This document shows, piece by piece, positions 20,915 through 45,352 of a stretch of DNA of 64,000 nucleotides. Under the pieces are notes generated by a model. The model was not told the DNA's origin, searched no databases, and saw nothing but the letters and a program-made list of their open reading frames with translations. Positions within the stretch are counted from its first letter, which is position 1. Each line of letters opens with the position of its first letter. The translations under genes were made by a program, and so were the position numbers. Source of the DNA: Cellulosimicrobium protaetiae (lineage in GTDB: Bacteria; Actinomycetota; Actinomycetes; Actinomycetales; Cellulomonadaceae); contig NZ_CP052757.1 in assembly GCF_009708005.2 (NCBI RefSeq), positions 1,302,001 to 1,366,000 of the forward strand, in the 5' to 3' direction.

Positions 20915-23013
20915 CCGCGATCCGCCTCGGGCTGTCCGAGCTGCGCCGCCTCGCCGCGGGCACGCTGCCGCGCCTCGCCATCCTGGCGATGGCGCTCATC
21001 CCCACCCTCTACGCCGGGCTGTACCTGTTCGCGAACCACGACCCGTACGACAAGCTCGACGAGATCCCCGCCGCGCTCGTCGTCCTGGACGAGGGCACCA
21101 CGACGACGGACGCCCAGACGGGGGCGACGACGGAGCGCCACTTTGGCCGCGACGTCGCCGACCAGCTCCTCGACGACGGCGGGTTCGGTTGGGTCGAGAC
21201 GAGCCAGGTCGACGCCGAGTACGGCGTGCGGTCCGGCCGGTACGACGCCGCGCTCGTCATCGGGCCGACGTTCTCCGCCGACCTCGCGTCCGCGGGCGAG
21301 TTCGAGCCCCAGCAGGCGAGCCTCACGCTCATCACCAACGACGCGAACAACTACCTCGCGCGCACCATCGCGGACCAGATCGTCGGCAAGGTGCGCGACT
21401 CGATCGCCGAGCAGGTCGGGACCGAGGCCGCGGACACGTTCCTGCGCGGCTTCGCGTCCATCCACACCAACCTCGCCGACGCCGTCGACGGCGCGGACCA
21501 GCTCCTCGACGGGTCGACGCAGCTCCGTGACGGCCTCGTCACCGCGGACGACGGCGCGCACACGCTCGCCACCGGCGCGGGCCAGGCCGCCGACGGCGCC
21601 GAGCGTCTCGACGTGAGCACCGGGACGCTCACGGACGCCGTCGGGCAGCTCGACGACGGCGCCGAGTCCCTGGCCACCGGGCTCGCGACGCTCCGCGGCG
21701 CGACGTCGTCGCTGCCCGACCAGACCCAGCAACTCGCCGACGGCGCCGCGCAGGTCGCGGACGGGAACGCGCAGGTCGCGCAGTACGGGCAGCAGGCCGC
21801 CGACGCGGCGGGCCAGGTGCTCCCGACGCTCGACACGATCCGCGGCGACGTCGACGCACGGCTCGACCAGCTCGTCGCCGACGGCGTCCTCGACCAGGCG
21901 ACGGCCGACCAGGTGCGGTCGCAGGTCGCACCCGTGCTCGACCAGCAGCGCGAGCAGGTCCAGGGCGCCGTCGACCAGGTGACCGCGGCCTCCGGGAAGC
22001 TCGACCAGCTCGCCGACGGCTCGCGCCAGGTGTCCGACGGCGCGGCCCGCCTCGCGGAGGCGACGCCGCAGCTCACTGCCGGGATCGCCACGGCCGCCGA
22101 CGGCGCGGACCGCCTCGCCGACGGCACCGGGCAGCTCGCCGCCGCGACCCCGCAGCTCGTGGACGGCGTCTCGCAGCTCGCCGACGGCACGCGCCAGGTG
22201 TCCGACGGGGCCACCTCGCTCGCCGACGGCACGTCGCAGCTGCGCGACGGCTCGGGCGAGCTCGTCGACGGCGTCACGCAGCTCCGCGACGGGCTCGCCG
22301 ACGGCCTCGGCCAGGTGCCCGACCTCGACGAGCAGACGCGCCAGGACACGGCCGAGACCATCGGCAACCCGGTGTCGGTGGAGAACGAGGCGCTGTCCTC
22401 CGCGGGGACGTACGGCGGCGGCCTCGCGCCGTTCTTCCTGTCCCTCGCGACGTGGATCGGCGCCTACGTGCTCTTCCTGCTGGTGCGCCCGCTGTCGTCG
22501 CGGGCCCTCGCCGCCGGGCGGTCCGGCCTGGCCACCGCCCTGGGCGGGTGGCTCACCCCGGCCACGATCGGCGTCGTGCAGGTCGCCGCGATGTTCACCG
22601 TGACCAAGTTCGCGCTCGACATCGACCCCGCCCACGGCGTCGGCACCGCGCTGTTCCTCGTGCTCGTGTCCGCGACGTTCGTCGCGATCCTCCAGGCGCT
22701 CAACGTCTGGCTCGGTGCGGCCGGGCAGTTCCTCGGGCTCGTGCTCATGCTCGTCCAGCTCGTCACCGCGGGAGGCACGTTTCCCTGGCAGACGATCCCC
22801 GAGCCGCTGCGCTCGATGCACCAGTTCCTGCCCATGACGTACGCCGTCGAGGGACTGCGCCAGCTCCTCTACGGCGGCAACATGGCGACGGTGACGCGCG
22901 ACGTCACGGTCCTCCTCGTCGTCCTGGCGGGCGCCCTCGCCCTGACCACCGTCGCCGCCCGCAGGCAACGCGTCTGGACCATCAAGAAGCTCCAACCGGA
23001 ACTCGTCCTCTGA
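20911..23013 (+). CDS. YhgE/Pip family membrane protein
   Basis: This 700-residue protein follows the YhgE/Pip (phage-infection-protein) design: one N-terminal membrane segment (LAILAMALIPTLYAGLYLF), a large extracytoplasmic domain with repeated helical units of the type QLADGTRQVSDGATSLADGT (about residues 200-480), and about five C-terminal membrane helices of the ABC-2 type ending KKLQPELVL. Family members act as phage receptors or as type VII/ESX-like and small-molecule export components. It is the second gene of a TetR-controlled pair whose ATPase partner looks catalytically dead. The last codons run directly into the first 21-bp repeats of the adjacent island. Confidence 0.9.
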   Translation: MTAIRLGLSELRRLAAGTLPRLAILAMALIPTLYAGLYLFANHDPYDKLDEIPAALVVLDEGTTTTDAQTGATTERHFGRDVADQLLDDGGFGWVETSQVDAEYGVRSGRYDAALVIGPTFSADLASAGEFEPQQASLTLITNDANNYLARTIADQIVGKVRDSIAEQVGTEAADTFLRGFASIHTNLADAVDGADQLLDGSTQLRDGLVTADDGAHTLATGAGQAADGAERLDVSTGTLTDAVGQLDDGAESLATGLATLRGATSSLPDQTQQLADGAAQVADGNAQVAQYGQQAADAAGQVLPTLDTIRGDVDARLDQLVADGVLDQATADQVRSQVAPVLDQQREQVQGAVDQVTAASGKLDQLADGSRQVSDGAARLAEATPQLTAGIATAADGADRLADGTGQLAAATPQLVDGVSQLADGTRQVSDGATSLADGTSQLRDGSGELVDGVTQLRDGLADGLGQVPDLDEQTRQDTAETIGNPVSVENEALSSAGTYGGGLAPFFLSLATWIGAYVLFLLVRPLSSRALAAGRSGLATALGGWLTPATIGVVQVAAMFTVTKFALDIDPAHGVGTALFLVLVSATFVAILQALNVWLGAAGQFLGLVLMLVQLVTAGGTFPWQTIPEPLRSMHQFLPMTYAVEGLRQLLYGGNMATVTRDVTVLLVVLAGALALTTVAARRQRVWTIKKLQPELVL

Positions 23014-23128
23014 CCCCGAGATCGAACCCTGGTCCGCCGAGGTAGAACCGTGGTCCCGCGAGGTAGAACCGTGGTCGCGCGAGGAAGGGCCTGGTTCTTG
23101 TGCCGGATGGCGTGTGGCTGGCTTGGGT

Positions 23129-23227
23129 GGTCGGGGTGGGTGGTGGTGCCGCGTCTACCATCCGCCGCTCGTCCCTCGCGGCTCCCGCCAGGCCCACCAC
23201 GACGCGGCACCACCACCCACCCCGACC
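23129..23227. repeat. Hairpin element with conserved 45-nt core, copy 1
   Basis: The 27-nt arms at 23129-23155 and 23201-23227 are perfectly complementary. The core (23156-23200, containing CCATCCGCCGCTCG and GCGGCTCCCGCCAGG) has its own GCCGC/GCGGC stem. The same core occurs at 44815-44860 with nearly the same arms and at 28033-28075 with unrelated arms. Confidence 0.85.
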
Positions 23228-23416
23228 GGCGTCGTCGCACCCTGGTCTGTGCGCGCCTCGGGCGACCGCCCGCGGTGTCGGATCCGCCAGCGTCGCATCG
23301 CGCCGAGCAGGTGGTTCTGGCTGGTCCTGGGTGGTGGACGAACCGTGATCACCTGTTCGGCCTGCCGGGACCGCCTGGTCGGCCAGGCGTCGGGGCATGG
23401 CGGGGCCGACAGGTGA

Positions 23417-23531
23417 GCGGTGGGGGTGGGCTCGGATGCGAAGGGGCGTCAAAGCCGCGCTCCGAGAACCCACGGCCGAAAGACCAGGGTGACGGCGCGG
23501 CAGCCCCGAGCACCGAGACCACCCCCACCGC
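23417..23531. repeat. Second hairpin module with conserved ~90-nt core, copy 1
   Basis: GCGGTGGGGGTGG (23417-23429) is perfectly complementary to 23519-23531. The enclosed 89 nt are nearly the same as the 90 nt at 45065-45154 in copy 2, which is more conservation than the spacer between the two modules shows. Confidence 0.75.
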
Positions 23532-23533
23532 GG

Positions 23534-23617
23534 ACCCGACCACGCGGGCCTGAGACCCGACCACGCGGGCCTGAGACCCGACCACGCGGGCCTGAGACCC
23601 GACCACGCGGGCCTGAG
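23534..23617. repeat. Four perfect tandem 21-bp repeats
   Basis: Four identical 21-bp units (core GACCACGCGGGCCTGAG) run from 23534 to 23617 and pass into diverged units with GACCACGGTTCTA up to about 23665. Identity between units points to recent expansion. Confidence 0.9.
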
Positions 23618-23726
23618 ACCCGACCACGGTTCTATCTCGCGCAACCACGGTTCTACCCCGGCGGATCGGAGAGCCACGGGGCGGACGGTTCCGGGCCCCG
23701 GGGCGCGAGGGTGCGAGAATCGCGAC

Positions 23727-26817: not shown

Positions 26818-28473
26818 TCAGCCTCCTGCCCCAGGACGAGCGGCGGCGCGGACCGCGTCGGACAGGCGGGCCAACGCCTCGTCGACGCGGGCGTCGGCCA
26901 GGTTGCCGTACCCGAGCACGAGGGTCGTCGACCGCTCGGCGGGGCGGACCTGGTAGCGGCGCAGGTCGGCGACCGTGACCTCGCGGCGCGCGGCCTCGCG
27001 CACGACGTGCGCGGCGTCGGGGGCGGGGCCGTCCGGTGAGCCGGGCAGGGAGAGCAGAGCGTGCATCCCCGCCGCGATGCCGCGCACCGCGGCGCCGGGC
27101 AGCTCGCGGGCCAGGGCGTCGAGCACGGCGTCGCGACGACGGCGGTACCGCCCGCGCGCGGCGCGCAGGTGCCGGTCGTACCCGCCCGACGCGACGAACC
27201 GCGCGAACGTGAGCTGGTCGACCGTGGACGGTGCCGCCGTCGAGCCGTGCAGGGTGGCCGCCCGCATCACGGACTCCCGCCAGCGCGCGGGCACGACCAT
27301 CCACCCGACGCCGAACGCCGGGCTCATCGTCTTGCTCACCGACCCCAGCAGCACCACACGCTCGGGGTCGAGCTGCTGGAGCGCGGCGACGGGCCGGCGG
27401 TCGTACCGGAACTCGGCGTCGTAGTCGTCCTCGACCAGGAGACCGTCGACGGCACGAGCCCACGCGACGACGGCCTCGCGCCGCTCGGGCGCCAGCGCGG
27501 AGCCGGTGGGGAACTGGTGCGCCGGCGTGAGCAGCGCCGCCCGCGCCCCGGTCCGGCGCGACGCCGCGACGAGCGCGTCGACGTCCGCGCCCGCGTCGTC
27601 CACGGGGACCGGGACGGGCGTGAGCCCGACGCGCGCCGCGACGTCGCGCAGCACGGACCAGCTCGGGTCCTCGACGAGGAGGTGCGTGTGACCCGCCTCG
27701 ACGAGCGCCGTCGCGACGCGCGCGATCCCGTCGGTCGCGCCGCGCGTGAGCACGACGGCGTCGTCCGCCGCGGCGGCGACCCGCGCCCGGCGCAGGTGGT
27801 CGGCGACGACGGCCCGCGCGTGCGGGTGCCCGGCGGGGGAGGGCTGGCCGAGGTCGTCGTTCGACGCGGTACCGGTCGAGGAACCGAGCGCGTCGCGCGC
27901 CGCCCGCAGCCACGCGTCGCGCGGCACGTGCCGGAGGTCGGGCACGCCGGGCGCGAGGTCGAACCGGGCGCGCGCGGTGCGGGTTCTGCCGGTGTCGGTC
28001 CGCCCGGCGTCCACGACGGCGCGCGCGGGTCGACCATCCGCCGCTCGTCCCTCGCGGCTCCCGCCAGGCCCGCCACGACCCGCGCGCGCCGTCGTTCCCG
28101 CCGGGCTCGTGGGCCACTCGCCGTGCGCACCCGTTCCCCTGGGGCTCGTCGATCGGGCGCCGACGCCGGCGGCGGTGGAGACGCGGGTCGCCGACCCGGT
28201 GCGCGCGTCGAGGAAGCCCTCGGCGACGAGCTGGCCGTACGCCTCCGTGACGACCCAGCGCGAGACGCCGAGCGACTCCGCGAGCTGTCGGCTCGGCGGC
28301 AGCGCCGCCCCGGCCGGGATGCGGCCGGTGTGCACCGCGTCGCGGACCGCGCGCTCGAGCCGTTCGACGCGCGAGCCCGGCCCCGTCCCCAGGTCGAGCA
28401 GCGCCTCCCAGGCGAGCTCCGCCATCGTCCCCGGACGAGCCGCTGGGAGCGAATTGGTCTGGTCGGTGGTCAT
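26818..28473 (-). CDS. MocR-type regulator: GntR winged helix plus PLP aminotransferase domain
   Basis: This 551-residue protein has a GntR helix-turn-helix at about residues 20-90 (GRIPAGAALPPSRQLAESLG, SRWVVTEAYGQL) and a fold-type-I aminotransferase domain from about 165 (PLP lysine probably in GSVSKTMSPAFG; DDYDAEFRYDRRP upstream). MocR proteins sense an amine or PLP form through this domain. The linker (about residues 126-154) is unusual: it is encoded by a copy of the 45-nt hairpin core with perfect 20-nt arms, seen also in the repeat islands. It is divergent from an aldo/keto reductase, the likely target (compare PdxR with pyridoxal metabolism). Confidence 0.88.
   Translation of the reverse strand: MTTDQTNSLPAARPGTMAELAWEALLDLGTGPGSRVERLERAVRDAVHTGRIPAGAALPPSRQLAESLGVSRWVVTEAYGQLVAEGFLDARTGSATRVSTAAGVGARSTSPRGTGAHGEWPTSPAGTTARAGRGGPGGSREGRAADGRPARAVVDAGRTDTGRTRTARARFDLAPGVPDLRHVPRDAWLRAARDALGSSTGTASNDDLGQPSPAGHPHARAVVADHLRRARVAAAADDAVVLTRGATDGIARVATALVEAGHTHLLVEDPSWSVLRDVAARVGLTPVPVPVDDAGADVDALVAASRRTGARAALLTPAHQFPTGSALAPERREAVVAWARAVDGLLVEDDYDAEFRYDRRPVAALQQLDPERVVLLGSVSKTMSPAFGVGWMVVPARWRESVMRAATLHGSTAAPSTVDQLTFARFVASGGYDRHLRAARGRYRRRRDAVLDALARELPGAAVRGIAAGMHALLSLPGSPDGPAPDAAHVVREAARREVTVADLRRYQVRPAERSTTLVLGYGNLADARVDEALARLSDAVRAAARPGAGG
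28013..28095. repeat. Hairpin element with conserved core inside mocR, different arms
   Basis: Arms at 28013-28032 and 28076-28095 are perfectly complementary over 20 nt and rich in GCGC. The core 28033-28075 matches the island cores at 23156-23200 and 44815-44860 almost base for base, while the arms share nothing with theirs. It lies in the linker-coding part of the MocR gene and keeps the frame open. Confidence 0.85.
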
Positions 28474-44502: not shown

Positions 44503-44787
44503 CATATCCGCATACCCGGACCCGCGCGCACCACAACCAGGACCAGCCGAGACACAACCCCGGTCCCGCGCAGCCAAACCCCGGCCCGCGGAGACAGAAC
44601 CGCGTCCGCCGCAGCAGAACTCTGGTCGGTCGAGATAGAACCCTGGTCGGTCGAGATAGAACCCTGGTCGGTCGAGATAGAACCCTGGTCCGCCGAGGTA
44701 GAACCGTGGTCGGTCGAGGTATAACCGTGGTCGGTCGAGATAGAACTGTGGTTGCTTCCTGCCCGACGGCGTGTGGTCGCCCTGGGT

Positions 44788-44887
44788 GGTCGGGGTGGGT
44801 GGCGGTGCCGCGTCTACCATCCGCCGCTCGTTCCTCGCGGCTCCCGCCAGACCCAACCACGACGCGGCACCACCACCCACCCCGACC
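44788..44887. repeat. Hairpin element with conserved core, copy 2
   Basis: Arms at 44788-44814 and 44861-44887 pair at 26 of 27 positions. The core (44815-44860) is 46 nt, one base longer than copy 1 because of an added A, which breaks any reading frame shared with copy 1. Confidence 0.85.
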
Positions 44888-45051
44888 GGCGTCGTCTCGC
44901 CTCGGTCGTCGCTCACCCGGGTTCACTGCCCGCGGCGTCGGCCCCGGGCACCCGCCACCAGCCGCACCCTGCCCACACAAGAGATCGCCTGATCGGCCTA
45001 CCGGGGCCGCCCCGGTCGGCGGTCCCCCGACCACGGAGACCCGACGGCAGA

Positions 45052-45167
45052 GCGGTGGGGGTGGGCTCGGATGCGAAGGGGCGTCAAAGCCGCGCTCCAA
45101 GAACCCACACCCGAAAGACCACGGCGACGGCGCGGCAGCCCCGAGCAACCGAGACCAGCCCCACCGC
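45052..45167. repeat. Second hairpin module, copy 2
   Basis: Arms at 45052-45064 and 45155-45167 pair at 12 of 13 positions and enclose a 90-nt core almost identical to that of copy 1 (23430-23518). Confidence 0.72.
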
Positions 45168-45352
45168 GAACCCGACCACGGCACTACCTCGCGCGACCAC
45201 GGTTCTATTTCGCGTGGCAAGGGTTCTCTCTCGCGCGACCACGGTTCTACTTCGCGCGGCCACGGTTCTCTTTCGCGCGGCCACGGTTCTCTCCCGGCCG
45301 GCCCGTGTTCTCATTGCGTGGTCCGCGGTTCTCGCCTTGTGGGGCAGCGGTG

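Follow-up and report, generated by a model that had tools for sequence, protein, structure and literature searches.

A dispersed hairpin with a nearly constant tip and free, self-matching arms in a mocR linker of Cellulosimicrobium protaetiae

The hairpin found in the mocR gene is one copy of a dispersed element of about 95 letters, in which the tip is nearly constant and the arms are free in sequence yet match each other. The element is conserved in its fold, stands at common sites of related species, has been lost elsewhere and occurs in both orientations. The reading favoured here, with a probability of roughly 0.58, is that of a REP-like dispersed element, so far undescribed, whose fold is what is recognised and whose movement would depend on a machinery without RAYT, any function given to it being putative. 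Positions refer to the window, i.e., the whole stretch of 64,000 nucleotides that was analysed. The mocR copy and its host gene are made up as follows, with the G-rich minus strand as the presumed folded strand.

26818..28473, minus strand: host gene, a MocR-type regulator (GntR plus aminotransferase), with the element in its linker and the G-rich strand as sense
28010..28103, minus strand: element within mocR, match of covariance model R1 (G-rich strand, 94 positions; 86.0 bits, E 2e-14)
28013..28032, minus strand: outer stem P1, 3' arm of the folded strand, 20/20 paired with 28076-28095, private to the mocR site within the genome
28033..28039, minus strand: internal loop, 3' side, GGAUGG plus 1 nt on the folded strand, conserved in the family alignment
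28040..28044, minus strand: inner stem P2, 3' strand, of varying length and sequence at other copies
28045..28053, minus strand: tip loop GAGGGACGA (family form GAGGNACGA)
28054..28058, minus strand: inner stem P2, 5' strand, from model and alignment
28059..28075, minus strand: internal loop, 5' side, UGGCGGGCCUGGCGGGA on the folded strand, conserved in the family alignment
28076..28095, minus strand: outer stem P1, 5' arm of the folded strand, from the sequence

The arms are exact reverse complements (20/20) on either side of a 43-nt core (28033-28075), which confirms the hairpin with perfect 20-nt arms reported in the first-pass annotation. Its statement that these arms are unlike those of the island copies was also borne out, with the refinement that island-type and solo-type arms intergrade at one site, and so was an in-frame insertion into an inter-domain linker: the element covers, by arithmetic, residues ~127-154, between the Pfam domains GntR (residues 37-98) and aminotransferase (176-487). 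The orthologous proteins are 80-91% identical in C. cellulans, C. funkei and C. composti and 73% identical in C. marinum. The element is retained in C. cellulans PW, C. funkei JCM 14302 and C. marinum, is decayed in NBRC 15516 and C. composti, and is almost all lost in C. funkei U11, which argues that single copies are dispensable. A core scan of the mocR orthologues of other genera (L076-L149) found no element, and the orthologue comparison yielded neither a target duplication nor an exact insertion boundary, so that the refuting case named in the first-pass annotation, linkers without a clean boundary, may still apply to mocR. In the best explanation, mocR is thus the carrier of an old and tolerated in-frame insertion.

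At up to 3 mismatches, the 4.78-Mb genome contains 40 copies of the core, compared with 0 for a reversed control pattern. The number is 41 when the inner stem is degenerate in the pattern; another copy, in L009, has a 6-bp inner stem that was missed by the fixed pattern. Common island arms are found in 31 of the 40 copies, while the other nine have private, self-matching arms, mostly imperfect over their full length. The 31 common-arm copies sit in islands together with 21-bp iterons, and two such islands fall in the window.

23134..23227, minus strand: island copy 1 of the hairpin, common island arms (model, 99.9 bits)
44793..44887, minus strand: island copy 2 of the hairpin, common island arms (model, 94.4 bits)
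22996..23104, plus strand: 21-bp iteron array left of island 1, a separate repeat family, limits approximate
44548..44760, plus strand: 21-bp iteron array left of island 2, a separate repeat family, limits approximate

The island hairpins are framed by inverted arrays of the iteron (AGAACCnTGGTCgcgCGAGgT) at 22996-23104, 23517-23665, 44548-44760 and 45167-45313. The iteron, a separate repeat family, has 325 matches genome-wide, and many among the matches listed lie far from any hairpin. In L339 and L348, the gene that precedes the first iteron-like unit seems to use the TAG of this unit as its stop codon. A 107-nt stretch (GGGCTCGGATGCGAAGGGGCGTCAAAGCCGCGCTC...) at 23406-23512 and 45041-45147 is 93% alike between the two islands, recurs in similar form in G000 and C. 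marinum, at one spacer (L348, L352), and is possibly a second conserved island module.

Copies are placed mostly 3' of genes, sometimes in coding linkers, and in either orientation. A solo-type copy is present in 17 of 17 genomes of the genus. With a crude ORF caller, 54 of 78 solo-type copies were intergenic (loci L041-L069 being outside this count), 31 of them between convergent, 23 between tandem and 0 between divergent genes, and one of 30 island copies lay between divergent genes. Copies in tandem settings were split 12 to 11 in orientation. The 24 calls 'inside' genes include the L003-type group, whose copies, close to where the called frame ends, may be just outside the true gene; both the 78-row list and the 85-row list used for comparing arms include L033, an island copy with one base changed. 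Two inverted copies (L029/L030, G000:C1:4132710-4133263) stand ~500 bp apart between convergent genes, with flanks that match in three species (L190, L195).

The outer stem P1 has mostly 25-31 paired positions and is free in sequence. It is followed by a fixed, asymmetric internal loop (5' GUGG-N-YGGGYCUGGCGGGA, 3' GGAUGG), by an inner stem P2 that is mostly 4-7 bp, free in sequence, variable in length and also covarying, and by a 9-nt tip loop; the letters of the tip and the internal loop are mostly constant across copies. In a covariance model of 21 sequences, both partners changed in 22 of 25 pairs, and pairing held in 98.7% of cells, a figure flattered because these sequences were picked for clean, collinear arms (of 31, nine were dropped for offset arms or loops, and one island copy as a near-duplicate). 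None of 500 shuffles reached as high, and sliding the partner by 1-3 columns gave 36-49% paired. The arms differ widely between copies and genera and yet pair. In pairwise comparisons over the ortholog groups, which are not independent, 175 stem changes were two-sided and still Watson-Crick, 94 led to wobbles on the G-rich strand and 27 to wobbles on the core strand, against 128 one-sided changes that gave true mismatches and 44 cases in which both sides changed but did not both pair. The stem fold is conserved by covariation, and the earlier suggestion that selection acts on the stem is supported by covariation, pairing and wobble bias. Flanking motifs are weak (101 sequences): upstream GGYGA at 0.52 versus 0.19 in shuffled sequence, and downstream YGACC at 0.45 versus 0.21. 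Four GG tracts in the loop strand are present in 170 of 173 sequences, most of these letters having already been required by the finder pattern; a tip G-quadruplex is no more than an idea.

The hairpin described earlier is real, but the strand on which it was read is probably not the one that folds. Among the arm mismatches of 102 solo sequences, which are not independent and include poorly paired tandem copies of G212, CA/AC outnumbered GT/TG by 80 to 13 on the core strand; CA/AC there is G.U on the opposite, G-rich strand. The count covered 144 sequences (the 102 solo and 42 island), those with N having been dropped. When solo copies were grouped by both matching flanks, 22 of 36 groups favoured wobbles on the G-rich strand, 0 the reverse, and 14 were ties, with 69 versus 5 mismatches in favour of that strand (sign test by hand, ~5e-7). 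For this grouping, 42 island sequences and two from other genera (L041, L058) were set aside from 131 distinct sequences; among the remaining 87 are the island-like L050, L052, L053 and L056, the chimera L211, and L204, a tandem that contributes two pieces. The bias was 16 to 0 in the L003-type group, whose sense strand is C-rich according to the crude ORF caller, and 2 to 1 in the ligD copies with the C-rich strand in sense. Since the bias stays on the G-rich strand even where the host gene reads the other, it is the G-rich strand, as RNA or single-stranded DNA, that seems to fold. Strand-biased cytosine deamination on the G-rich strand could be an alternative source of the same asymmetry. 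Energy folding showed no preference for the G-rich strand (z -5.1 versus -6.7 for the other strand) and, on the G-rich strand, did not recover the modelled inner stem.

The family is patchily distributed within its order. The pattern was found in 19 of 150 genomes of the family and 9 of 396 of the order. The model, with up to 35 places per genome scored in the family and up to 14 in order and class, was found in 30 of 121 family genomes (10 of 25 genera; at least 3 matches in 25 of the 30), 16 of 297 order genomes (10 of 95 genera) and 3 of 296 class genomes, the latter including the own genome and one outside the order at E 5e-6. This amounts to 17 genera of one actinobacterial order, 10 in the family and 7 outside, some by a single weak match. 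Phages, plasmids and IMG/VR gave no match with the queries used. A known RNA family was rejected, as Rfam matched three rRNAs only in the whole window at gathering score and nothing in the mocR stretch at E up to 10. A RAYT-driven REP was likewise rejected: Y1_Tnp (PF01797) was present in 0 of 17 genus genomes, the search being positive in 5 of 14 control genomes. No paper on the element was found among titles and abstract starts of an open-access library, which does not establish its absence from print. A 2017 survey reportedly listed 224 candidate RNAs.

REPs are known for lineage-specific expansion, which they have in common with the element. In the GTAG/CGTC families (PMC3733652), most stems are 6-9 bp, the families carry a terminal GTAG or CGTC tag as their mark, and RAYTs are Y1-type transposases. 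The element resembles the REPs and REPINs described there in being a dispersed hairpin with many, mostly extragenic copies, alternative complementary stem residues, GT pairs and subfamilies, but differs from them in its long P1, its fixed internal loop and tip, and the missing Y1_Tnp (PMC3733652). At the hairpin foot, no fixed tetranucleotide was seen by eye, only the weak GGYGA/YGACC enrichment. The first-pass view that ordinary REPs and MITEs do not look like this holds for the long arms, the conserved internal loop and the lack of a Y1 transposase, but not for the REP-like dispersal of a hairpin with compensated stems; although it behaves like a REP, the element is not filed as one because no RAYT was found in the genus genomes. 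MITEs and Rickettsia RPEs are also short, lack a protein and insert in frame into linkers, with their terminal sequence kept. The element is like them in the first three respects, but its terminal arms are the free part, differing between sites except in the island copies, and no target duplication was found. Integron attC sites are folded single strands of variable sequence, with a conserved base and a varying top. The element is likewise a folded site of variable sequence, but reversed, with the top conserved and the base free. Fixed loops with free, covarying stems recall structured noncoding RNA motifs (Rfam; PMC2864571), from which the element differs in its lack of an Rfam match and its many copies per genome.

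In the favoured reading, the G-rich strand (minus in the window) would fold into the long P1, the fixed asymmetric internal loop, the short P2 and the 9-nt tip. A trans-acting factor may recognise this folded strand, as RNA or as single-stranded DNA, and the recognition could both spread the element and select for its fold, in a REP-like manner but without RAYT. The arms are inherited with the core and then drift largely in step. Mobility is suggested by the unoccupied sites L350 and L354, by the element-free mocR orthologues of other genera, and by a broken and an intact copy side by side in ligD of C. marinum; against this reading, no mobilising enzyme was found, Y1_Tnp being the one searched for.

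The ligD copies (L150, L153, L156, L161, L168, L175, L180, L187, L193, L213 and L219) lie in the linker between two parts that are, by their motifs, putatively phosphoesterase and ligase. The C-rich strand is in sense in 5 genomes and the G-rich strand in 6, so that different species carry opposite orientations; the flanks of a twelfth copy, L178, group with the G-rich-in-sense set. Since the linker bears both orientations, the element is not a protein motif. In C. marinum (G032), a broken copy of the first orientation (C-rich in sense) is followed by an intact copy of the second, and the remaining half inner stem of the broken copy is the same uncommon P2 as in the intact one. Two routes would lead to this: re-entry of the element into its own copies, or inversion in place. 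A more specific form, which is possible but doubtful, is a mobile element defined by shape: the loop and tip would be fixed, any stems that pair would do, the G-rich strand (perhaps with a tip G-quadruplex) would be the substrate of a non-Y1 machinery, and a copy could give way at its site to one of opposite orientation, the ligD linker being the example.

The main rival, although unlikely, is a structured RNA that serves the host, in 3'-end processing, RNA stability or a family of trans-acting small RNAs, and is kept by purifying selection at each site, with old dispersal and now mostly vertical descent. The core is kept at one intergenic site in 10 genomes of the genus, and at other common sites, while the neighbouring sequence is scrambled; a purely selfish repeat seldom stays so long at single sites, and a host function would fit such persistence. 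The compensated stems with G.U wobbles and the placement of intergenic solo-type copies without any divergent gene pair point the same way. However, a host RNA is hard to reconcile with the indifference to orientation, both in tandem settings and in ligD, with copies inside mocR and ligD, with lost or broken sites, and with the patchy distribution.

Bidirectional intrinsic terminators, in which the tip would be conserved by chance and the arms would differ as in any terminator, are an improbable explanation. The location at gene ends suits them, and plain perfect hairpins, unrelated in sequence, are present in several relatives at the L237 and L224 sites. In L339, however, the element and iteron-like units stand between the stop codon and a plain hairpin, and the unoccupied L350 has a similar hairpin, which speaks for insertion beside a terminator-like hairpin and not for that hairpin itself. 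Moreover, copies occur inside mocR and ligD, no T-run follows the arms by eye in mocR, ligD or the sequences of other genera, and wobbles are still biased towards the G-rich strand where the gene apparently reads the opposite one.

It was also proposed in the first-pass annotation that the arms are acquired or copied at insertion. In this explanation, which is more improbable still, a core without fixed arms would take the arms of each copy from its target, e.g., by template switching. In its favour is an orthologous intergenic site in four species (L035, L182, L184 and L212), where the arms are almost wholly different yet self-complementary; core identity is 0.986 and arm identity 0.635, two columns of the core differ, and the remaining spacer sequence is scrambled. 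In G072 (Isoptericola sp. BMS4) and other genera, moreover, the proximal arm tends to be common and the distal arm private. A proximal arm common to most of the G072 copies shown is, on the other hand, as expected from amplification within a lineage. Arm copying as the main route was rejected, since the 31 island copies have near-identical full arms at different sites, the intergenic copy L040 of G000 has GGGGCGCTCGCGCC in common with the ligD copies of five other genomes, one pair at an orthologous site passes stepwise through T-A (L155), C.A (L199) and C-G (L158), and the arms are absent from the unoccupied sites of the genus (L350, L354), neither of which is demonstrably pre-insertion sequence. 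Arms ending in CGCGCC are found in six copies (L040, L156, L161, L178, L180 and L187). As copies of one lineage have arms in common, the arms travel with the core and diverge afterwards, in many cases through compensatory substitution. In 8 ortholog groups of at least 4, mean core identity was 0.94-1.00 and mean arm identity 0.64-1.00; in 3 of these, including mocR (0.925 for arms versus 0.946 for core), arm conservation comes close to that of the core. The arms are also absent from the spacers of G072 relatives at the L237 and L224 sites, which are not demonstrably pre-insertion sequence and differ throughout between relatives, the L224 anchor being found in only 8 of 17; one relative at the L237 site (L261) has a divergent element with different arms. 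Neither exact ends nor a target duplication could be set at mocR, L237, L224 or L339-type sites, as no unoccupied site was close enough.

Finally, a conserved protein-coding linker motif, which the first-pass annotation had named as a refutation of the element, agrees with the in-frame copies in mocR and ligD but is refuted by the intergenic majority of solo-type copies, by the two orientations in ligD and by covariation that follows pairing.

With the favoured reading of an element recognised by its fold, the differing but self-matching arms are accounted for without arm copying at insertion. The result is a dispersed family with strong covariation that is apparently absent from the libraries searched. 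A fixed core with free stems makes it a clean bait for fishing out a recognising protein, and the natural copies in mocR and ligD are ready tests. If the element moves without a Y1 transposase, there would be a second route for REP-like spread.

Several copies depart from the common form. L298 (G026, another genus) retains the internal loop but has GCCA on the inner stem in place of the 9-nt tip loop. The outer stems of L307, L309, L310 and L322 (family f3, genus g43) have an additional mismatch motif in common, with GAAGGC facing GCCGAG or GCCAAG. In another family of the order, L220 (G212:C1:2990737-2990949) consists of three tandem copies spaced 87-88 bp apart, two of them decayed. In L211 (G118:C1), the left and right arms come from two different copies, and the partner half is found at a contig end (L215 on G118:C1, L349 at the end of G118:C3); L211 is either a recombination product or a misassembly at the core.
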